This document shows, piece after piece, positions 48,088 to 61,445 of a stretch of 64,000 nucleotides of DNA. Location: positions 1-64,000 of the forward strand of contig NZ_PGTX01000004.1 in assembly GCF_002797575.1 (NCBI RefSeq), in the 5' to 3' direction. The notes under the pieces are model-generated. The model searched no databases. It saw only the letters and a program-made list of their open reading frames with translations, and was not told where the DNA came from. The DNA is from Polynucleobacter brandtiae (GTDB taxonomy: Bacteria; Pseudomonadota; Gammaproteobacteria; Burkholderiales; Burkholderiaceae). Both the position numbers and the translations under genes were made by a program. Within the stretch, counting starts at the first letter, position 1, and the number at the start of each line of letters is the position of its first letter.

Positions 48088-49086
48088 ATGTTTAATCAAG
48101 TCAGTAAGCTTTCCATATTTTCATTTGGTAAATTAAAAAAGGCTTTATTTTTAATCTGCGCAATCCCATTGACCGTCATGGCTCAAGAGTGGCCCAATAA
48201 GCCAATTACTTTTGTTGTCCCATTTCCAGCTGGTGGCGGTACCGACGCTTTTGCTCGACCATTAGCCAATCAGCTTACCAAGCAGTTAGGCAAGCAAATC
48301 ATTATTGATAACCGTGGCGGTGCAGGTGGTACCTTAGGCGCTTCCATTGCAGCCAAGGCGGCCCCTGATGGCTACAGTTTTTTTGTTGGCGCAGCGCATC
48401 ATGCAATTGCACCATCTATGTATCCCAATCTTGACTACGACATTGAGAAGAGTTTTATTCCGGTTGCAATGATTGCAAACCCACCCCAAGTCATTGTGGT
48501 GAATCCCAAAAATGTACAGGCTAAAAACTTAAAAGAATTTATCGAGCTGCTGAAAAAGAATCCTGGTAAGTTTAATTATGCGAGTGCCGGTAATGGGTCA
48601 TCACACCACTTGGCTGGCGAGCAATTTAAAATGCTAACCAAGACATTCATTACCCATATTCCTTACCGTGGTGCAGGCCCCGCAATGCAAGACCTGATTG
48701 CTGGTCAAGTGGATGTTGAGTTTGATGGCCTGGGCTCTTCTGCTCCACAAATTAAAAACGGTGCCATTGTTGCTTTGGCTGTAGCCTCACAAAAGCGCGC
48801 ACCTGGTTTTCCAAACGTGCCAACTGCAGCGGAAGCTGGGTTGGTTGGGTATGAGGTTTCTACTTGGTACGGTATATTTGCACCTAAAGGTACACCACAA
48901 CCTATCGTCGACAAAATGATTGCTGAGATTCAGAAAGCAATCAATACCCCTGAACTGAAGACTATCTGGACTAATAATGGCTCTGACACTCCGAATTTAA
49001 CAGGGGAAGCATTTGGTAAATTTGTTTCTGCGGATATTAAGCGTTGGGCTTCCGTTGCTAAGGCCTCTGGCGCTAAGCTTGATTAA
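48088..49086 (+). CDS. Bug/TctC-type periplasmic solute-binding protein
   Basis: A 332-residue Bug-family protein of the tripartite tricarboxylate transporter class. A signal peptide ends near residue 33 (VMAQ). The mature part begins EWPNKPITFVVPFPAGGGTDAFARP, the family hallmark, with only its central portion quoted here as PFPAGGGTDAFARP. It probably binds a carboxylate; its place between malonyl-CoA decarboxylase and synthetase suggests malonate. No TctA or TctB membrane subunits are coded nearby, so it must use partners from elsewhere or act only as a sensor. Confidence 0.9.
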   Translation: MFNQVSKLSIFSFGKLKKALFLICAIPLTVMAQEWPNKPITFVVPFPAGGGTDAFARPLANQLTKQLGKQIIIDNRGGAGGTLGASIAAKAAPDGYSFFVGAAHHAIAPSMYPNLDYDIEKSFIPVAMIANPPQVIVVNPKNVQAKNLKEFIELLKKNPGKFNYASAGNGSSHHLAGEQFKMLTKTFITHIPYRGAGPAMQDLIAGQVDVEFDGLGSSAPQIKNGAIVALAVASQKRAPGFPNVPTAAEAGLVGYEVSTWYGIFAPKGTPQPIVDKMIAEIQKAINTPELKTIWTNNGSDTPNLTGEAFGKFVSADIKRWASVAKASGAKLD

Positions 49087-49120
49087 TGATTTGATTTAAC
49101 TGACTGGTTTTGAGGCTCTT

Positions 49121-50644
49121 ATGAATTTATATTCTCTCTTGGAAAAAGGTTTTCCAAAAGACAAGCAAGCATGTGCACTAGAAACGCATGATGGACTGTA
49201 TTACTCCTGGAGCGATCTAGAGCGTGCTACTGCCAAGATGGCGAATTTTTTAAAGAGCCTCAAACTGCCAGCTGGTTCACGTATTGCAGCGCAAGTTGAA
49301 AAGTCCCCTGAGGCACTGTTTCTTTATCTGGCTACTGTTAAAGCGGGCTATGTTTATTTGCCTCTGAATACGGCATATCAAGCCGCAGAGATTCAATACT
49401 TTATCGAAAATGCTGAGCCTGCCGTGATGGTTTGCAGTAGTAAGAATTTCTCCTGGGTTTCTAAAGTCGCTTTTAAAGCGGGTACTATGCGGGTCTTTAC
49501 GTTGGATGAGGATCGTACGGGAACCTTGTTAGAGCGTTGTACTAATCAAAGTGACCAGTTCAAAACAGTACCCGTTAAGGATGATGATTTAGCTGCCATC
49601 TTGTATACCTCCGGTACCACTGGCCGCAGTAAAGGCGCGATGCTGACCCATCGGAATCTAGGCAGTAATGCACAGGTTTTGCAAAAATTCTGGGGCTGGA
49701 AAAAGGGCGATGTTTTATTGCATGCGCTCCCTATTTTCCATGTGCACGGTTTGTTTGTTGCTGCTCATGGCGCATTAATCAACGGTAGCAAAATGATTTG
49801 GTTGCCACGTTTAGACACAGCGCAACTCATTCATCACATGCCAAATTCTACTGTCATGATGGGTGTGCCTACCTTTTATGTGCGCTTGTTAGCGGATAAA
49901 GGGTTTACTAAGCAGGTTACAAGCAATATGCGGTTATTTGTTTCTGGATCTGCGCCGCTACTGACAGAAACTTTTAATACCTTTAAAGAAGTAATTGGCC
50001 AGCCCATACTTGAGCGTTACGGCATGAGTGAGACTGTGATGTTGGTCTCTAATCCTTATAAGGGAAGTCGTATAGGCGGTTCAGTTGGCTTGCCTTTACC
50101 AGGAGTGAAGGTTCGGGTGGTGAATGAAAATAACAAGCCTTGTGGTCCAAATGAAATTGGCAGTATTCAGGTAAAGGGTCCGAATATATTTAAGGGTTAC
50201 TGGCGCATGCCTGAAAAGACAGCTGAAGAATTTACTAAGGATGGCTGGTTTAAGACGGGTGATGTCGGTCGCTGGGGTGGCGCTGCTAATGGTGGTACTG
50301 CACCCAAGGATTATTTATGTATTGTTGGGCGCAGTAAAGATCTGATTATTTCTGGTGGCTATAACGTCTACCCAAAAGAAATTGAGAGCTTTATTGACGA
50401 TATGGATGGTGTTGATGAGAGCGCAGTAATTGGCATTCCGCATCCTGATTTTGGTGAGGCAGTGATGGCGGTGGTCGTTCCAAAGAAGGGTGCTAAGTTA
50501 GATCCTCAGGCGATGATTGCTACCCTGAAAACGCAGATTGCTAACTTTAAGATCCCTAAGCGCTTAGAAGTAGTTTCTGACTTGCCTCGCAACGCTATGG
50601 GTAAAGTTCAAAAGAACATTCTGCGCGAGCAATACACTAGCTAG
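49121..50644 (+). CDS. matB: Malonyl-CoA synthetase (MatB-like acyl-CoA synthetase)
   Basis: ANL-family ligase that activates malonate with ATP and CoA. The 507 residues have the P-loop LYTSGTTGRSKGAML near residue 162, the motif LERYGMSE, the hinge GRSKDLIISGGYNVYP and the C-terminal catalytic lysine in NAMGKVQK. MatB identity is supported by the malonyl-CoA decarboxylase gene just upstream; another short-chain acid is the alternative. It ends 13 bp from the convergent permease gene. Confidence 0.88.
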   Translation: MNLYSLLEKGFPKDKQACALETHDGLYYSWSDLERATAKMANFLKSLKLPAGSRIAAQVEKSPEALFLYLATVKAGYVYLPLNTAYQAAEIQYFIENAEPAVMVCSSKNFSWVSKVAFKAGTMRVFTLDEDRTGTLLERCTNQSDQFKTVPVKDDDLAAILYTSGTTGRSKGAMLTHRNLGSNAQVLQKFWGWKKGDVLLHALPIFHVHGLFVAAHGALINGSKMIWLPRLDTAQLIHHMPNSTVMMGVPTFYVRLLADKGFTKQVTSNMRLFVSGSAPLLTETFNTFKEVIGQPILERYGMSETVMLVSNPYKGSRIGGSVGLPLPGVKVRVVNENNKPCGPNEIGSIQVKGPNIFKGYWRMPEKTAEEFTKDGWFKTGDVGRWGGAANGGTAPKDYLCIVGRSKDLIISGGYNVYPKEIESFIDDMDGVDESAVIGIPHPDFGEAVMAVVVPKKGAKLDPQAMIATLKTQIANFKIPKRLEVVSDLPRNAMGKVQKNILREQYTS

Positions 50645-50657
50645 TAGTCGGCACTAC

Positions 50658-51476
50658 TCAGAACCCAAATGCCTTGCGGCTTTCGTTAAACATGAAGGCC
50701 GCAAGCAAAAATAACATCACTCCAAAAATGCGTTTAAGCTGAGCAACATTGAGTTTTCGGGCCATTTTTGCACCTAATGGGGCGGTAAAAATACTCACTG
50801 CCACAATGCAGATGACTGCGGGTAAATAGACAAATCCGAGCGATCCTTCGGGTAGGTTTGGGTTACCCCAACTACCGTACATATACCCAATAGTGGCTGC
50901 CGCTGCAATTGGGAACCCAAGTCCTGAGGAGCTGGCCATTGCAGTGTGGGGTTTAACGTTACACCACAGCATAAATGGCACAGTTATAAATGCGCCACCC
51001 GCACCAACAAGACTTGCAATCACGCCTGTAAAAGCCCCAAAGGAAAAAAGCCCCAACCTTCCCGGCAACTCACGGCCAGCCGTAGGTTTTTTATTGATGA
51101 TCATTTGAACCGAGGTGTACACAATAAATAGGGCAAAGCAAAGGGATAACCAAGAGGTATTGATTGCCTCAAAAATTTCGCTACCACCCACTAGGCTACC
51201 AATAACTAAGCCCGGACTTAATGAGGCAACTAACTTCCAGTTTATTGATTGATGTTTGTGATGCGCCCATATGGCCGAAGTAGTGGTGAATAGAATGGTT
51301 GCCATACCTGTAGCAATAGCCATATGTACGATGATGTTTTGGCTGAATCCGAGGTGATTAAAAACCAAAATCATGAATGGCACCAATATCATGCCGCCGC
51401 CAATACCAAGCAGCCCAGCAAGAAAGCCAGAAATACTGCCACACAGCATTAGCATTGCAATGTCGCTTATTGACAT
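50658..51476 (-). CDS. TSUP-family (TauE/SafE) membrane permease
   Basis: A 272-residue membrane protein with two halves each starting with a glycine-rich helix pair (GLLGIGGGMILVPFM and SLVGAGGAFITVPFML), the hallmark of the TauE/SafE family of organic-sulfonate, sulfite or carboxylate permeases. The substrate cannot be read from the sequence. It lies directly downstream of 6S RNA on the same strand with almost no gap, so it may be expressed by read-through from the RNA gene. Unlike the TauE/SafE-like gene at 9355, it is a full-length TSUP protein. Confidence 0.88.
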   Translation of the reverse strand: MSISDIAMLMLCGSISGFLAGLLGIGGGMILVPFMILVFNHLGFSQNIIVHMAIATGMATILFTTTSAIWAHHKHQSINWKLVASLSPGLVIGSLVGGSEIFEAINTSWLSLCFALFIVYTSVQMIINKKPTAGRELPGRLGLFSFGAFTGVIASLVGAGGAFITVPFMLWCNVKPHTAMASSSGLGFPIAAAATIGYMYGSWGNPNLPEGSLGFVYLPAVICIVAVSIFTAPLGAKMARKLNVAQLKRIFGVMLFLLAAFMFNESRKAFGF

Positions 51477-54743: not shown

Positions 54744-55361
54744 ATGACAGCGTTAGACAAGCACCCCGAAAAAAACCTGATTCGCCTACAGCTGAGCCAA
54801 AATTCTGTGCTCAAAAGCCTGGATTCAGAGACATTGGCAGAGTTGGAGCGTCATTTGGAGGTTTCAGATCTCAAAAAATCTGAAATCCTGCTCCATCAAG
54901 GCGATCATCAAATGGAGCAGTATTTCGTTTTAGATGGAATTTTGAAGCGGATCGTATCAAGCGCTGACGCTAAAGAGATGATTTTGCGCTTTGCTATTGA
55001 GAAAGACATTGAGACTAGCTATGCTGCTTGGCGCCTGAAAACCTCAGCCCCATACAGTATTGCCTGCGTTACTAAGGCTCGTGTAGCGCGCATGCCCCTG
55101 AAGAAGTGGGCTGAATTTTTGGATGCGCATCAGCCATTAAAGGAGAGTTTTGAGTTTGAGGTGATGCGCTTAATGAGTGAAATCATGGCCCACACCATCA
55201 CTCTGCATATGCTGGATGCCCCTGGGCGAGTGGAGCGTTTCTTGCGCAAATATGAGGCATTGTTTGAGCTTCTCCCCAAAAAAGAGCTGGCCGCCTACTT
55301 AAATCTCTCCCCAGAGACTTTAAGCCGTATGAAAACGAAGCATAAAGAGCTCTTTACGTAG
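54744..55361 (+). CDS. Crp/Fnr-family regulator of the oxalate locus
   Basis: A 205-residue regulator with a cyclic-nucleotide-binding-like domain (about residues 20-125), a dimer helix and a C-terminal helix-turn-helix (ELAAYLNLSPETLSRMK). The recognition helix holds E-x2-SR, as in FNR, predicting TTGA-type half-sites. There is no N-terminal cysteine cluster, so it is not an oxygen-sensing FNR. It precedes oxc on the same strand; a TTGAC-N4-GTCAA site lies between. Its effector may be an oxalate-derived metabolite or a redox cue (inference). Confidence 0.9.
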   Translation: MTALDKHPEKNLIRLQLSQNSVLKSLDSETLAELERHLEVSDLKKSEILLHQGDHQMEQYFVLDGILKRIVSSADAKEMILRFAIEKDIETSYAAWRLKTSAPYSIACVTKARVARMPLKKWAEFLDAHQPLKESFEFEVMRLMSEIMAHTITLHMLDAPGRVERFLRKYEALFELLPKKELAAYLNLSPETLSRMKTKHKELFT

Positions 55362-55397
55362 CCATAAAGCGAGTTGTTTCTAGATTTCAGGGGGAAA

Positions 55398-55439
55398 TTG
55401 ACCGAAGTCAATGATGAACTAGACCCCCAAGTCTAAGAT
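55398..55439 (+). promoter_or_regulatory. Probable activator site and promoter of oxc (box 55398-55411, -10 at 55434-55439)
   Basis: TTGAC-CGAA-GTCAA is a perfect FNR/CRP-like dyad. TAAGAT follows 22 bp later. Taking this as -10 gives a start at 55446 and centres the box at exactly -41.5, class II activator geometry. The leader to oxc is then about 126 bases. Confidence 0.65.
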
Positions 55440-55506
55440 TCAACTCAGCCTTATCGGGGTGTTTGCCCTTACCGTTGCATCCCTAACAACACTTTATTGG
55501 AGACAG

Positions 55507-55520
55507 TTAGCGCAAGCTAA
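55507..55520 (+). promoter_or_regulatory. Small hairpin in the oxc leader (TTAGC-GCAA-GCTAA)
   Basis: A 5-bp stem closed by a GCAA (GNRA-type) loop, 52 bp before the oxc start codon. It may stabilise the leader or affect translation. It is too short to be a terminator. Confidence 0.3.
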
Positions 55521-55571
55521 ATCGTATTGAACTTACTGATCGTTCAGTCGATGTAATTAACTAAATATTTT

Positions 55572-57281
55572 ATGACAACAGATAATCAAAACACCCCAGT
55601 AACCGACGGTTTTCACCTCGTGATTGATGCTTTAAAAGCAAACGATCTCGATACTATTTTTGGACTTGTTGGTATTCCTATTACTGACTTATGCCGCTTG
55701 GCTCAGGCTGAAGGCATTCGTTTTATTGGCTTTCGCCACGAACAACATGCAGGTAATGCTGCAGCAATTGCAGGCTACATGACCCAAAAGCCCGGTATCT
55801 GCATGACTGTTTCGGCTCCTGGTTTTTTAAATGGTTTAACAGCACTTGCCAATGCGACCGTGAACTGCTTTCCTATGATTTTAATCAGTGGCTCAAGTGA
55901 GCGCGAGATTGTGGACTTGCAACAAGGCGACTACGAAGAAATGGATCAGCTCAATGCTGCTAAGCCGTATTGCAAAGCAGCTTATCGCATCAATCACATT
56001 GAAGATATTGGCATTGGCTTTGCACGTGCAATCCGTGCAGCGGTATCAGGTCGTCCAGGTGGCGTGTATCTAGATTTGCCAGCGCAATTGCTGAGTCAAA
56101 CTATGCCGGTTGAAGAAGCTAAAAAGTCGATCTTTAAAGTAATCGATCCAGTTCCACGTCAAATCCCAGCAGCTGATGCTGTTGAGCGCGCCTTGAATAT
56201 ATTGAAGGGCGCCAAGCGTCCATTGATTTTGTTGGGCAAAGGCGCAGCTTATGCACAAGCCGATGCTGATATTCGTGCTTTGATCGAAAAATCAGGTATT
56301 CCTTACTTGCCAATGTCGATGGCTAAAGGTTTGTTGCCAGACAACCACCCACAATCGGCTTCTGCAGCCCGTTCATTTGTGTTGGCTGAGGCTGATGCGG
56401 TGATGCTGGTTGGCGCACGTTTAAATTGGTTGCTTGCGCACGGCAAAGGCAAGACTTGGGGCAAAGAGCCTAAGAAATTTATTCAGATCGATATTCAGTC
56501 AAATGAAATTGATAGCAACGTGCAAATTGATGCCCCATTGATTGGTGATGTCGGTTCTTGCGTTGGTGAGCTCTTGAAAGGTATTGCAGTAGTTCCCAAG
56601 CCAAGTGCTGAATGGATTAATGCCATCAATGAGAAAAAAGACAAGAACATGGCGAAGATGGCAGAAACACTTGCTAAAGAAGCCTCTCCAATGAACTTCC
56701 ATGGCGCATTGCGTGCTATTCGTGATGTTGTTAAGAAAAACCCAGATCTCAATTTGGTAAACGAAGGCGCAAACACCCTCGACTATTGCCGCGCCATTGT
56801 AGATATGTACAAGCCACGTAAGCGGTTTGACTCGGGTACTTGGGGCATCATGGGTATTGGTATGGGTTACGCAATCGGTGCTGCAGTAACTAGTGGTTTA
56901 CCAACGATTGCAGTTGAGGGCGATAGCGCCTTTGGATTTAGCGGTATGGAATTAGAAACCATTTGCCGCTATAACCTACCTATTACAACCATTGTGTTCA
57001 ACAACAACGGTGTATACCGTGGTACTGATGTCAACCCAACTGGTGGGGCTGATGTCGCACCAACTGTATTCGTTAAGAATGCACGTTACGACAAAATGAT
57101 AGAGGCGTTTGGTGGTGTGGGTTACTACGTTACTACGCCAGAAGAGCTGGAGACAGCCCTGACTAAGGCTATTGCGGAAGGCAAGCCCGCATTGATTAAT
57201 GCTGTGATTGACGAAACTGCCGGAACAGAAAGTGGACGTTTAACTAATCTGAACCCATCAACCGCAGCCGCAAAGCATTAA
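55572..57281 (+). CDS. oxc: Oxalyl-CoA decarboxylase
   Basis: Thiamine-diphosphate enzyme that converts oxalyl-CoA to formyl-CoA and CO2. The 569 residues match the 568-residue Oxalobacter enzyme. The N-terminal domain has [16 protein letters not shown] with the cofactor-activating glutamate, and the C-terminal domain has the diphosphate motif [11 protein letters not shown] followed by [10 protein letters not shown]. It is first gene of the catabolic run and is followed by frc after 79 bp. No oxalate transporter such as OxlT is coded nearby. Confidence 0.96.
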
Positions 57282-57360
57282 GTATTTTAGAGTAATGAAT
57301 CAGTAATATTTTTGAGCTAAATTAGGCAATAAATAAGTAGCAACTTAAGGAGAATTAAAA

Positions 57361-58611
57361 ATGACAAAACCATTAGACGGCATTCGCATCATCGATTTCA
57401 CACACGTACAAGCAGGTCCTGCGTGTACCCAGTTGTTGGCTTGGTACGGTGCTGATGTGATCAAGGTAGAGCGTCCAGGTTCTGGTGACGTAACACGTAG
57501 TCAGTTACGCGATATTCCAGATGTGGATGCGTTGTATTTCACGATGTTGAACGGTAATAAGCGTTCTTTGACTTTGGACACCAAGACTCAAGAGGGTAAA
57601 GAAGTTTTAGAGAAGATGATCAAGACTTCCGATGTAATGGTGGAGAACTTTGGCCCAGGCGCCTTAGATCGCATGGGTTTTAGTTGGGCGCGCATTCAAG
57701 AATTGAACCCAAAAATGATCATGGCTTCCGTAAAAGGCTTTAGTGATGGTCACTCATATGAAGATTTAAAAGTGTATGAGAACGTGGCTCAGTGTGCTGG
57801 CGGCGCTGCCTCTACCACTGGTTTCTGGGATGGTCCTCCTACTGTTTCTGCTGCTGCTCTGGGCGACAGTAATACAGGTATGCACTTAGCTATTGGTATT
57901 TTGACTGCATTAATGCAGCGTCAAAAAACAGGCAAGGGTCAAAAAGTATCTTGCTCAATGCAAGATGCTGTATTGAACTTGTGCCGCGTGAAGTTGCGCG
58001 ATCAACAGCGCTTAGACAAAATTGGTTACCTCGAAGAGTATCCACAGTACCCACACGGTACCTTTAGTGATGTAGTTCCACGCGGCGGTAATGCGGGTGG
58101 TGGCGGTCAGCCAGGTTGGGTATTAAAGTGTAAGGGTTGGGAAACGGATCCTAATGCTTATATCTACTTTACGATTCAAGGCCATGCTTGGCAGCCAATT
58201 ACAGAAGCTCTCGGTCGTCCAGAGTGGGCAACTGATCCTGCTTATATGACTGCAGAAGCACGTCAAGATAAGATTTTTGATATCTTTGCAGTAATTGAAG
58301 AGTGGCTCAAAGACAAGACCAAGTACGAGGCAGTAGATATTCTCCGTAAGTTCGATATTCCTTGTGCACCAGTACTCTCAATGAAAGAATTGGCTGCATC
58401 ACCAGACTTACGTAAGAGTGGTTCCATTGTTGAAGTCGACCACAAAGCCCGTGGTAAGTATTTAACTATTGGTAGCCCAATTAAGTTCTCTGACTTGGAA
58501 GTCGAAGTAAAGCCATCTCCTTTATTAGGTGAGCATACTGATGAAGTATTGACTGATCTTGGTTATAGCGCAGACGACATTTCAAAGCTGCACGCAGCTA
58601 AAGCAGTTTAA
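57361..58611 (+). CDS. frc: Formyl-CoA:oxalate CoA-transferase
   Basis: Class III CoA-transferase that moves CoA from formyl-CoA to oxalate, closing the cycle with Oxc. The 416 residues keep the catalytic aspartate D169 in LGDSNTGMH, at the same position as in Oxalobacter Frc, and the mobile glycine loop GGGG-Q at 246-250. AAGGAG at 7-8 bp spacing precedes the ATG. A strong terminator follows at 58640-58668. Confidence 0.95.
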
Positions 58612-58639
58612 TAACGACTCTTTAGTAATTGCATTATGC

Positions 58640-58668
58640 AAAAAGGCGCTCTTCATGAGCGCCTTTTT
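58640..58668. terminator. Bidirectional rho-independent terminator after frc
   Basis: GGCGCTC (58645-58651) and GAGCGCC (58657-58663) form a 7-bp GC-rich stem with a TTCAT loop, flanked by A-runs before and T-runs after. It would end the oxc-frc transcript and insulates the downstream genes. Confidence 0.9.
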
Positions 58669-58706
58669 CTTGTCTGCGATTTCGTAAAGATGAGTAGACT
58701 AGTGCA

Positions 58707-59135
58707 ATGAACACAAACATTGATGTACTTAAGTTATTGGATTGCATAGGCGATGCCATGATCGTGGCTGATGCCCATGAAAAGATCGTACTGTGGAATG
58801 CGGCCGCCACACGAATATTTGGATACACAGAAGCAGAAGTGCTTGGCAAGACATTGGATTTAATTGTTCCTGAGCGTCAACGCCAAAGACATAGTGAGGG
58901 CTATCGGCATTCCATGCACACTGGCACCACTCGTTATGGATCCGCACTGTTGAAGGTGCCTGCCAAACACAAAGATGGTCGCACTCTATCGATCGCTTTT
59001 ACTGTCGGGATGTTGCTTAATGAGCAGCATGAAGCCTATGGAGTAGTTGCCGTTATCCGAGATGAGACTGAGCGTTTTGCTCAGGAAAGGGCGCTACAAA
59101 AGCGTCTAGCCGATCTAGAAAATTCTGCACCCTGA
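58707..59135 (+). CDS. Stand-alone PAS-domain protein
   Basis: A 142-residue protein made almost entirely of one PAS domain (about residues 8-125), with DAMIVADAHEKIVLWNAAATRIFGYTEAEVLG-type core motifs (for example WNAAATRIFGYTE) and a PAC segment ending VVAVIRDETERF. A short coiled-coil tail follows. It has no kinase, HTH or GGDEF output domain, so it may be a sensor that acts on a partner. It lies between the two frc genes, after the terminator. A flavin or heme ligand cannot be predicted. Confidence 0.88.
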   Translation: MNTNIDVLKLLDCIGDAMIVADAHEKIVLWNAAATRIFGYTEAEVLGKTLDLIVPERQRQRHSEGYRHSMHTGTTRYGSALLKVPAKHKDGRTLSIAFTVGMLLNEQHEAYGVVAVIRDETERFAQERALQKRLADLENSAP

Positions 59136-59159
59136 GTCTCAAAGTACTTTCAGGGCATT

Positions 59160-59230
59160 GGCATAGGATATGCCTAAAAAATAGGCATTAATTATTGAGA
59201 TTGAAGGGCGCACTGGTAAAATATGCCTAA
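59160..59230. repeat. TGCCTA repeat cluster upstream of the second frc paralog
   Basis: GGCATA-GGA-TATGCC (59160-59174) overlaps ATGCCTA-N5-TAGGCAT (59170-59188). ATATGCCTAA occurs at 59168-59177 and again at 59221-59230. Four copies of the same half-site in 71 bp point to a regulator-binding region different from the TTGAC site before oxc. Confidence 0.6.
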
Positions 59231-59263
59231 TTTAAAAATTCATACATTATTAGAAAGTTCATC

Positions 59264-60511
59264 ATGGCAAAAGCGTTAGAGGGAGTTAAAGTCCTCGACT
59301 TTACCCACGTGCAATCCGGCCCAACCTGCACTCAGTTGCTTGCTTGGTTTGGTGCTGATGTTATCAAGGTTGAAAAATCGGGGGAGGGGGACGCAACGCG
59401 TGGTCAGTTACGCGACATCCCCGATGCGGATAGTTTGTATTTCACGATGTTAAACCATAACAAACGCTCCATTACGGTGAATACAAAAACTCCCCGTGGT
59501 AAAGAAATTTTAGAGCGACTCATTAAGGAGTGTGATGTCCTGGTAGAAAACTTTGCTCCAGGCGCTTTAGATCGTATGGGTTTTTCTTGGGAGCGTATTC
59601 AGGAGCTCAACCCGATGATGATTATGGCCTCTGTTAAAGGTTTCGGTCCTGGCCCTTATGAAGATTGCAAGGTGTATGAGAACGTTGCACAGTGTGCGGG
59701 CGGCTCAGCATCAACAACTGGTTTTGATGATGGCCCCCCAATGGTGACTGGTGCTCAAATTGGAGATAGCGGCACCGGCTTGCATTTGGCTCTAGGAATT
59801 GTTACGGCGCTTTACCAGCGCACGCATTCTGGCCGAGGTCAAAAGGTGCTAGCTGCAATGCAAGATGCCGTACTCAATTTGTGCCGCGTCAAATTGCGTG
59901 ACCAACAGCGTTTAGAGCGCAACGGTACTATGCAAGAGTATCCACAGTATCCTAACGGCACCTTTGGGGATGCTGTACCCCGCGCTGGCAATGCTTCTGG
60001 TGGCGGTCAGCCTGGTTGGATTTTGAAATGTAAGGGCTGGGAAACAGATCCTAATTCTTATATTTATGTCGTAGTTCAGGCTCCAGTATGGGAGGCTATT
60101 TGTAAAGTAATTGGTCGCGAAGACTGGATCACTGATCCAAACTATGCCTCTGCCATGGCACGGTTGCCACGTTTGATGGAGATTTTTGCTGAGATTGAGA
60201 AGTGGACTTCTACCCTAACAAAATTTGAAGTGATGGATACCTTAAATAAGTATGACATTCCTTGCGGACCTATTTTGTCGATGAAAGAAATTGCTGAAGA
60301 ACCTTCACTCAGGGCGACGGGAACGGTGGTTGAAGTGGATCATCCTATTCGTGGAAAGTATCTGACTGTGGGTAATCCAATTAAGTTATCAGATAGCCCA
60401 ACTGAAGTAGAGCGTTCACCACTGTTGGGTGAGCACACCGATGAAATCTTGAGTGAACTTGGGTTTACAACAGATGAACTGATCTCTTTACGTCGCGATA
60501 AGGTTATTTAA
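59264..60511 (+). CDS. Formyl-CoA transferase paralog (class III CoA-transferase)
   Basis: A 415-residue paralog of Frc, clearly similar along its whole length. The catalytic aspartate is kept (D168 in IGDSGTGLH). The glycine loop reads SGGG-Q (245-249), with the first glycine replaced by serine. This could change loop motion or acceptor choice. It has its own upstream repeats and is followed 1 bp later by a formyltransferase-fold gene, unlike frc. It may use formyl-CoA with a different acid or be an isoenzyme. Confidence 0.92.
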
Positions 60512-60512
60512 T

Positions 60513-61445
60513 ATGCGGGTTGCTTTGATTGGTAGTGCTGATTTTGGTAAGGCAGCGTTAGAGGCCTTTTTGGACCGAGGTGATGAAGTGGTCGCTGTGT
60601 TTTGCCCGCCCGACAACCCTAAATCTACTAAGCCAGAAGCATTGAAGGAAGCTGCCATTGCAAGCGGTTTAGTTCCCCTGCAGTTTGCATCCTTGAAGGG
60701 GCCTGAAGCGGCTCAAGCGATGATTGATAGCCAGGCTGATATTTGTGTAATGGCTTATGTACTTCAGTTTGTTCCTCAAGAGTTAGCTAAATTGCCCAAG
60801 CATGGCACTATTCAGTATCACCCCTCCTTACTCCCTAAATATCGTGGACCCAGCGCTATTAATTGGGCAATTGCTCTGGGTGAAGAAAAGACGGGATTGA
60901 CTATTTTTCGACCATCGGACGGATTGGATGAGGGCGAAATTATTTTGCAAAAAGAGGTTGCTATTGGACCCGACGATACTTTAGGGCATATCTACTTTGA
61001 TGCCTTATTCCCTATGGGCGTTAAAGCATTGCTGGAGGCTGCAGATCTGGTGGCTGCTCATCAGCATCAAGAGATTATCCAGGATGAATCCTTGGCAAAT
61101 TACGAGGGTTGGTTTGAAATAAATGCCGCGCAGATTCATTGGGCAAGCCATATCACTCAAACGTACAATCTTATTCGTGCTTGCAACCCAGCGCCTGGAG
61201 CCTGGACAAAAATGGGCGAGCAAAAGGTACAAATTTTTGATGCCCGTAAACATGTTTCCGCTACCTACGGGGCTGTAAAAGGAAAGCCAGGGGAGATCAC
61301 TCAGATTTCTGCGGACTCATTTTTTGTGGGCTGTCATGGAGGACAGATTGAGGTCCTTAAGGCAAAGGGTAGCGCAGGAAAAATGAGTGGCGCCCAGTTA
61401 GCCCAGGAGTTAAATCTACAGGTAGGCCAATTTTTTCTACTGTAG
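60513..61445 (+). CDS. Formyltransferase-fold protein like the hydrolase domain of 10-formyl-THF dehydrogenase
   Basis: A 310-residue protein with a formyl_trans_N domain (about 1-180) and a C-terminal OB-like domain (about 205-305). It resembles the N-terminal domain of 10-formyltetrahydrofolate dehydrogenase more than Fmt: HPSLLPKYRGPSAINWAI holds H103 and DGLDEGE holds D139, the same 36-residue spacing as the catalytic H106 and D142 of that enzyme. It starts 1 bp after the Frc paralog and must be co-translated. It could release formate from, or load formyl onto, tetrahydrofolate. Fmt itself is a less likely reading. Confidence 0.85.
   Translation: MRVALIGSADFGKAALEAFLDRGDEVVAVFCPPDNPKSTKPEALKEAAIASGLVPLQFASLKGPEAAQAMIDSQADICVMAYVLQFVPQELAKLPKHGTIQYHPSLLPKYRGPSAINWAIALGEEKTGLTIFRPSDGLDEGEIILQKEVAIGPDDTLGHIYFDALFPMGVKALLEAADLVAAHQHQEIIQDESLANYEGWFEINAAQIHWASHITQTYNLIRACNPAPGAWTKMGEQKVQIFDARKHVSATYGAVKGKPGEITQISADSFFVGCHGGQIEVLKAKGSAGKMSGAQLAQELNLQVGQFFLL

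Follow-up and report, generated by a model that had tools for sequence, protein, structure and literature searches.

We analyzed a 64,000-nucleotide stretch of DNA from the freshwater bacterium Polynucleobacter brandtiae (NCBI RefSeq assembly GCF_002797575.1, contig NZ_PGTX01000004.1, positions 1 to 64,000; the window from here on), which carries an oxalate locus ending in a gene for a formyltransferase-like protein of 310 amino acids (aa). We use FmtX as a working name for this protein; its gene, fmtX, occupies positions 60513 to 61445 of the + strand. Comparison across genomes suggests that FmtX exchanges a formyl group between coenzyme A (CoA) and tetrahydrofolate (THF), mostly in the direction of the folate, which we consider moderately probable. 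A broader statement, that FmtX would be an undescribed formyl-CoA:THF formyltransferase, directly bridging the CoA-bound and folate-bound one-carbon (C1) units of formyl-CoA-making Pseudomonadota, Acidobacteriota and Chloroflexota, fused in many to formate-THF ligase and in one eukaryote-derived transcript to a domain like that of oxalyl-CoA decarboxylase (Oxc), and misnamed as methionyl-tRNA formyltransferase (Fmt), we hold to be about evenly balanced.

The reaction would be formyl-CoA + THF <-> 10-formyl-THF + CoA, with the formyl group moving between the thiol of CoA and N10 of the folate. Oxc would turn oxalyl-CoA into formyl-CoA, and most of that formyl-CoA would be consumed by the formyl-CoA:oxalate CoA-transferase (Frc), which thereby activates a further oxalate and yields formate. 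A part of the formyl-CoA would be diverted by FmtX to the folate pool without formate release, and the folate-bound formyl could go on to purines, serine, and methionine. To our knowledge, few fates of formyl-CoA are known: Frc, hydrolysis, and condensation by HACL. The genes, their family, residues, linkage and fusions, and the lack of a formate-THF ligase match in the window genome are read from sequence, and from them we infer what FmtX catalyzes, in which direction, and to what end.

The analogy behind this proposal comes from FDH, the 10-formyl-THF dehydrogenase (ALDH1L1). In FDH, the thiol of a 4'-phosphopantetheine arm accepts the formyl group from 10-formyl-THF (PMC6802093; for the arm also PMC8748788). 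Because CoA carries that same arm, the authors who studied HypX (HoxX) propose CoA as its formyl acceptor, with formyl-CoA as an intermediate (PMC6802093). By the same analogy, an FDH-like protein encoded beside enzymes that make and use formyl-CoA would be a candidate for moving formyl groups between folate and CoA.

FmtX and the FDH hydrolase domain

Public records label the relatives of FmtX as methionyl-tRNA formyltransferases. FmtX has the Pfam domains PF00551 and PF02911, and it scores 150.3 bits against the Fmt model TIGR00460, below the cut-off of 201.5, and 19.8 bits against the PurU formyl-THF deformylase model, below the cut-off of 285.95; it is over the cut-off for no NCBIfam model. 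Its best relatives by sequence in PDB are FDH hydrolase domains (166 bits vs. 130 for Fmt), the domain to which a preliminary description of this locus had likened it. By Pfam scan, the FmtX chain has PF00551 and PF02911 only, without the carrier and aldehyde dehydrogenase domains of full FDH/ALDH1L and without the C-terminal enoyl-CoA hydratase/isomerase-like domain of HypX. The fold itself is undecisive: structures of Fmt, ArnA, and FDH all fit the AlphaFold2 (AF2) model of FmtX (pLDDT 95.5) about equally, and we set fold comparison aside as a discriminator.

A phylogenetic tree splits 66 FmtX sequences, two FDHs, and one doubtful sequence (L091) from 11 Fmts with support 100/100. The branching order of FmtX relative to FDH is unsettled in this tree, in which the FDH branch is long (1.39) and consists of only two sequences. 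L023, L024, and L091-L107 are excluded from all family counts as Fmt-like, L091 itself being ambiguous (Cys at 101, W118, F132, and a long branch). Four short sequences (L042, L069, L080, and L087) are not in the tree, and they are kept in the residue counts where their letters are present.

The residue alignment has 70 members, the window and 69 other loci. H103, S105, and D139 are invariant in 70/70 and are the counterparts of the FDH triad His106/Ser108/Asp142 (PMC6802093). Fmt, ArnA, and GART have an Asn two residues before the catalytic His (the N-x-H motif), as do 11 of 12 outgroup sequences, whereas the 70 FmtX members have Gln (52) or Cys (18), and never Asn. The motif used in the search for most loci fixed the H and the S and allowed Q, C, or N in the first position of N-x-H, so the invariance of H and S is partly built in, but the lack of Asn is not. 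As a motif-independent check, the 52 fusions to formate-THF ligase described below have Q in 51 cases and C in one, with H, S, and D present in 52/52. The FDH-like W118 and F132 are found in 70/70 members, Y197 in 69/70, and E198 in 68/70. The preliminary description had also pointed to the H103-D139 spacing as equal to that of FDH. It is 36 residues in both, but it is 36 as well in 12/12 outgroup rows (11 Fmts and the doubtful L091), so the spacing does not single out FDH, and we discarded it as evidence.

As far as sequence can tell, FmtX is related to the FDH hydrolase domain but forms a protein on its own, and it is not an Fmt. With that domain it shares the His-Ser-Asp triad and the HPSLLP..RG..NW, F132, and Y-E signatures; it differs from FDH in standing alone and in having Gln or Cys in place of the Ile at position 104. 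Zebrafish FDH has Ile there, and its I104N mutant is reported to keep less than 10% of the hydrolase activity (PMC4388273). In addition, the same genome (2.0 Mb) has a true Fmt (268 > 201.5), a PurU over its cut-off (326 > 286), and a PRK06988-type, ArnA-like formyltransferase (443 > 316); a fifth gene with PF00551 looks like PurN.

Other known systems come close to parts of this picture. The N-terminal domain of HypX has the same fold and a proposed role in folate-CoA formyl exchange (PMC6802093), but HypX makes CO and has the C-terminal domain that FmtX lacks, and the two are only 18-23% identical in structure alignments with the FmtX of the window. There is precedent for two CoA-transferases in the vicinity of oxc: in E. 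coli yfdXWUVE and Acetobacter aceti uctB/uctC, Oxc is near two class III CoA-transferases, and in some bacteria both are of the Frc type (PMC3720670); what the window locus adds is the FDH-like formyltransferase. Formate-THF ligase also reaches 10-formyl-THF, from formate, but it is ATP-dependent and belongs to another Pfam family (PF01268). In the open-access literature, which leaves most subscription papers outside, and in the accessible text of the papers it comprises, we recognized neither an oxalate locus with an FDH-like formyltransferase nor a formyl-CoA:THF formyltransferase. If the proposal is true, carbon from oxalate can reach serine and purines directly, a gene that is widespread and misannotated as Fmt finds an explanation, and synthetic C1 pathways, the CORE cycle among them, are offered a step that formate plus formate-THF ligase now covers (PMC11961710).

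Gene context, fusions, and co-occurrence with Oxc

We compared the gene context of 72 loci chosen by similarity to FmtX: the window, eight further stretches (L018-L022 and L025-L027), and L028-L090 from a genome collection. These loci are not independent, since ten of them are from Polynucleobacter or near it. We observe that frc is directly 5' of fmtX in 55/72 loci, and this linkage occurs in both Pseudomonadota and Acidobacteriota. Upstream of frc in those 55 loci there is oxc in 38, another thiamine enzyme (~25% identical to Oxc) in the position of oxc in nine, and neither of the two on the same strand in eight; in five of these last eight the sequence extends less than 2.4 kb upstream, and in L087 oxc lies on the opposite strand. 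The remaining 17/72 loci have no adjacent frc. The formate-THF ligase gene (fhs) adjoins fmtX in 18/72 loci, one of which, L021, is an fhs-fmtX pair without oxc and without adjacent frc. The preliminary description would have counted it against its proposal if the frc-fmtX pair were commonly found away from oxalate genes. By that measure, 38 of the 72 loci have oxc upstream, nine have the different thiamine enzyme, eight have a frc for which no upstream partner was found on the same strand, and 17 lack an adjacent frc.

The nine loci in which the other thiamine enzyme replaces oxc are L034, L040, L041, L042, L060, L064, L066, L068, and L078. For the enzymes of L041 and L060, the best model is one named for acetolactate synthase and the second best an HACL model, both below cut-off. 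A related thiamine enzyme is found beside fmtX in two Dehalococcoidia loci (L067 and L090), which are among the 17 without adjacent frc. In three others of these 17 (L044, L048, and L069), fmtX comes after an aldehyde dehydrogenase gene, and a molybdate-regulator-like gene lies opposite (L044 was scanned, and the others are read by similarity). Such a pair is possibly a split analogue of ALDH1L1, with CoA replacing the carrier domain. Near the L061 locus there is an oxalate/formate antiporter over its cut-off.

FmtX also occurs in gene fusions. A search restricted by length to long proteins gave 226 matches in all; of the 120 listed among them, 52 have FmtX joined to formate-THF ligase. Most of these fusions (37/52) are 870-900 aa long, and they resemble L057, in which one 883-aa frame holds FmtX and the ligase. 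One record from a eukaryote transcript collection, P0167 (920 aa), joins FmtX (residues 8-306) to an Oxc-like domain (361-919) that is over the PRK09259 cut-off and under that of TIGR03254. P0167 is a single record that may be contamination, and the 39 matches of another search for FmtX-Oxc fusions contain no second case. Four apparent Frc-FmtX fusions (P0161, P0165, P0231, and P0241) were set aside because each holds only part of Frc; they look broken or misassembled. Two more proteins, P0173 (664 aa) and P0177 (684 aa), combine a cation-diffusion transporter domain with FmtX, an arrangement that we cannot explain.

When plasmids are searched with the window protein, pLA6_002, from a marine Paracoccaceae strain, comes first, followed mostly by rows annotated as Fmt or ArnA (30 listed of 327); when the L049 protein is the query and the limit is stricter, three records are returned, again with pLA6_002 first. 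On this plasmid the genes oxc-frc-fmt_2-fhs_2 are accompanied by a universal stress gene; the product of fmt_2 shows the residues typical of FmtX, with Cys at 101. The locus also includes the tripartite-transporter genes TctB and TctA, and a gene annotated as argininosuccinate lyase in the place of TctC. Within ~20 kb on either side we find ppc, two sucCD-like ligase pairs, pyruvate phosphate dikinase, and putative formate dehydrogenases, together with glyA2, a class V aminotransferase, hprA_2, folD_2, and an MTHFR-like gene. We take these flanking genes to encode enzymes expected to feed 10-formyl-THF into a serine cycle. We had considered FolD for a gene of 285-300 aa downstream of the alphaproteobacterial fhs, and rejected it: in L049, the one case scanned, the product is a universal stress protein, and its counterpart on pLA6_002 is so annotated.

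As a control, we scored Oxc and FmtX in 398 sampled genomes from the host's phylum, calling FmtX at E <= 1e-40 with up to five candidates scored per genome; two further matches (G102 and G226) were dropped as ordinary Fmts. While Oxc is over cut-off in 29/398 genomes and FmtX is in 10/398, nine of those ten FmtX genomes have Oxc, that is, FmtX is in 9/29 genomes with Oxc vs. 1/369 without (p 1.5e-10). Counted by genus, FmtX is in 5/13 with Oxc vs. 1/199 without (p 2e-6). In two genomes (G366 and G312) both genes are present and unlinked, either separated by 165 kb or placed on two contigs. The 20 loci from genomes with Oxc and without FmtX (15-16 kb each) have a frc-like gene in 20/20 cases and, within the 15-16 kb examined, fhs in 0/20.

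At closer range, among 121 genomes of the genus Polynucleobacter, fmtX is in 97 and oxc (E <= 1e-150) in 96. Both genes are present in 92 and neither in 20, with oxc only in four and fmtX only in five as inferred by elimination (p 1e-14); joint loss within the genus is to be expected because the two genes lie close together there. As side observations, fmtX is fragmented in a genome of Polynucleobacter necessarius (L080), and in five other genus members (G509, G419, G498, G500, and G478) the fmtX match is partial or has a stop.

Direction of the exchange and rival explanations

The claim of the preliminary description that formyl groups move from formyl-CoA to THF gains comparative support from the frc-fmtX linkage, the adjacent or fused fhs, the Oxc-like fusion, and the plasmid island, and loses the arguments drawn from the H/D spacing and from the second Frc (see below). 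Three observations favor the direction towards folate: the fusion to an Oxc-like domain, the plasmid island resembling a serine cycle, and the window genome, in which formate-THF ligase (FTHFS, PF01268) has no match. Given this lack of an Fhs match, FmtX, if it works as proposed, would be the sole link that we found between oxalate carbon and folate in this organism. The formate released by Frc would there be oxidized; the genome has a formate dehydrogenase alpha subunit over cut-off (722 > 666). In serine-cycle bacteria, on the other hand, FmtX and Fhs together could serve bulk carbon assimilation. Speaking against assimilation, four type strains of Polynucleobacter are reported not to assimilate oxalate (PMC5018217; for P. 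asymbioticus also PMC3308952). The locus may be for energy and C1 supply rather than for growth on oxalate alone.

The same enzyme could run in reverse, making formyl-CoA from 10-formyl-THF and CoA so that the Oxc-Frc cycle is primed or replenished, and with Fhs it would become an ATP-driven formyl-CoA synthetase that uses folate as the carrier. HypX is proposed to run in this direction (PMC6802093), the Fhs that adjoins or is fused to FmtX would supply the 10-formyl-THF, and oxalate cycles do need a primer, for which YfdE has been proposed (PMC3720670). But the window genome has no Fhs match to supply it, other CoA transferases can prime, the single Oxc-like fusion places FmtX by the formation of formyl-CoA, and the plasmid island fits a flow into folate. 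We regard the reverse direction as unlikely.

More improbable is that FmtX is a hydrolase releasing formate from 10-formyl-THF, like PurU or the isolated hydrolase domain of FDH, which the preliminary description had offered as its second option. FDH hydrolase domains are the closest solved relatives, and formate is also a product of Frc. Hydrolysis is disfavored because the genome already has its PurU, and because a hydrolase adjacent or fused to Fhs would give a futile, ATP-burning cycle. Moreover, in FDH a thiol has been proposed as the first attacker (PMC4388273).

Public annotation, and the Pfam domains and fold common to Fmt and ArnA, would have FmtX formylate an amine, either Met-tRNA or some metabolite, with the proximity of frc a matter of regulation only. 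This is a still slighter possibility, as the genome has both its true Fmt and the ArnA-like enzyme, the amine-acceptor Asn is gone in all 70 members and all 52 fusions, and the linkage to frc is found in two phyla. Least probable of all is that FmtX serves formyl-CoA from several sources, the oxalate locus being merely the commonest setting: the nine loci with the other thiamine enzyme upstream of frc, the two Dehalococcoidia loci (in L090 an HACL-like model is second best, below cut-off), and 14/72 loci without frc, upstream oxc, this thiamine enzyme, or fhs (yet L045 has oxc ~6 kb downstream) speak for it, but Oxc accompanies FmtX in nine of the ten genomes of the 398-genome sample, and for the window such a variety of sources is compatible with CoA-folate exchange.

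The window locus and neighboring genes

The locus reads, on the + strand from 54744 to 61445, Crp/Fnr-like regulator, oxc, frc1, PAS gene, frc2, fmtX. The genes of the preliminary description are where it placed them, and oxc, frc1, and frc2 are all over their curated cut-offs. The gene oxc (55572 to 57281) scores 984 bits against TIGR03254 (cut-off 739.4). The first CoA-transferase gene, frc1 (57361 to 58611), scores 735 bits against TIGR03253 (cut-off 504.2), and the best PDB match of its product is YfdW. The second, frc2 (59264 to 60511), scores 742 bits against the same model, and its stop codon is 1 bp away from the ATG of fmtX at 60513. Although frc2 had been described as a divergent paralog and special partner of fmtX, it is 66% identical to frc1, and by the curated model its product is an ordinary Frc. 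Similar proteins also occur without fmtX: 14/20 of the oxc loci lacking fmtX have a Frc 73-79% identical to the fmtX-linked one of L049. We rejected a special role for Frc2.

After frc1 there is a terminator-like hairpin (58640 to 58668, + strand; -19.2 kcal/mol, z -6.6, with a U-rich 3' arm), which is missing from the list of a consensus scan, and before frc2 there is a promoter-like site (59195 to 59222, + strand; TTGAGA-16-TAAAAT, with TG before the second hexamer). This promoter-like match is weak, because eight such sites are found in the region vs. 10.3 expected, no more than chance. From the hairpin and the weak site, frc2-fmtX may be a separate transcript; the two features fit the second operon previously suggested without showing one.

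Between frc1 and frc2, a gene at 58707 to 59135 (+ strand) encodes a single PAS-domain protein (PF00989). Relatives of it are near frc in 7/20 of the oxc loci without fmtX, so that this lone PAS-domain protein is a conserved, and unexplained, companion of frc. The Crp/Fnr-like regulator gene 5' of oxc (54744 to 55361, + strand; cNMP_binding Pfam domain) has relatives near oxc in Polynucleobacter and in the betaproteobacterial loci L036, L047, and L158. A search of the window genome for AcetylCoA_hydro found nothing. Upstream in the window, at 48088 to 51476, genes for a TctC-type receptor, a malonyl-CoA synthase-like ligase, and a TauE-type transporter are possibly a malonate cluster.

Finally, downstream of fmtX in L036 (9043-16268) we observe a signaling block made of a CHASE2 Ser/Thr kinase, a PP2C phosphatase, another gene, and a CHASE2 nucleotide cyclase. 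By similarity, a like block is present in the betaproteobacterial or unclassified loci L033, L035, L038, L043, and L047, with the kinase not seen in L043.

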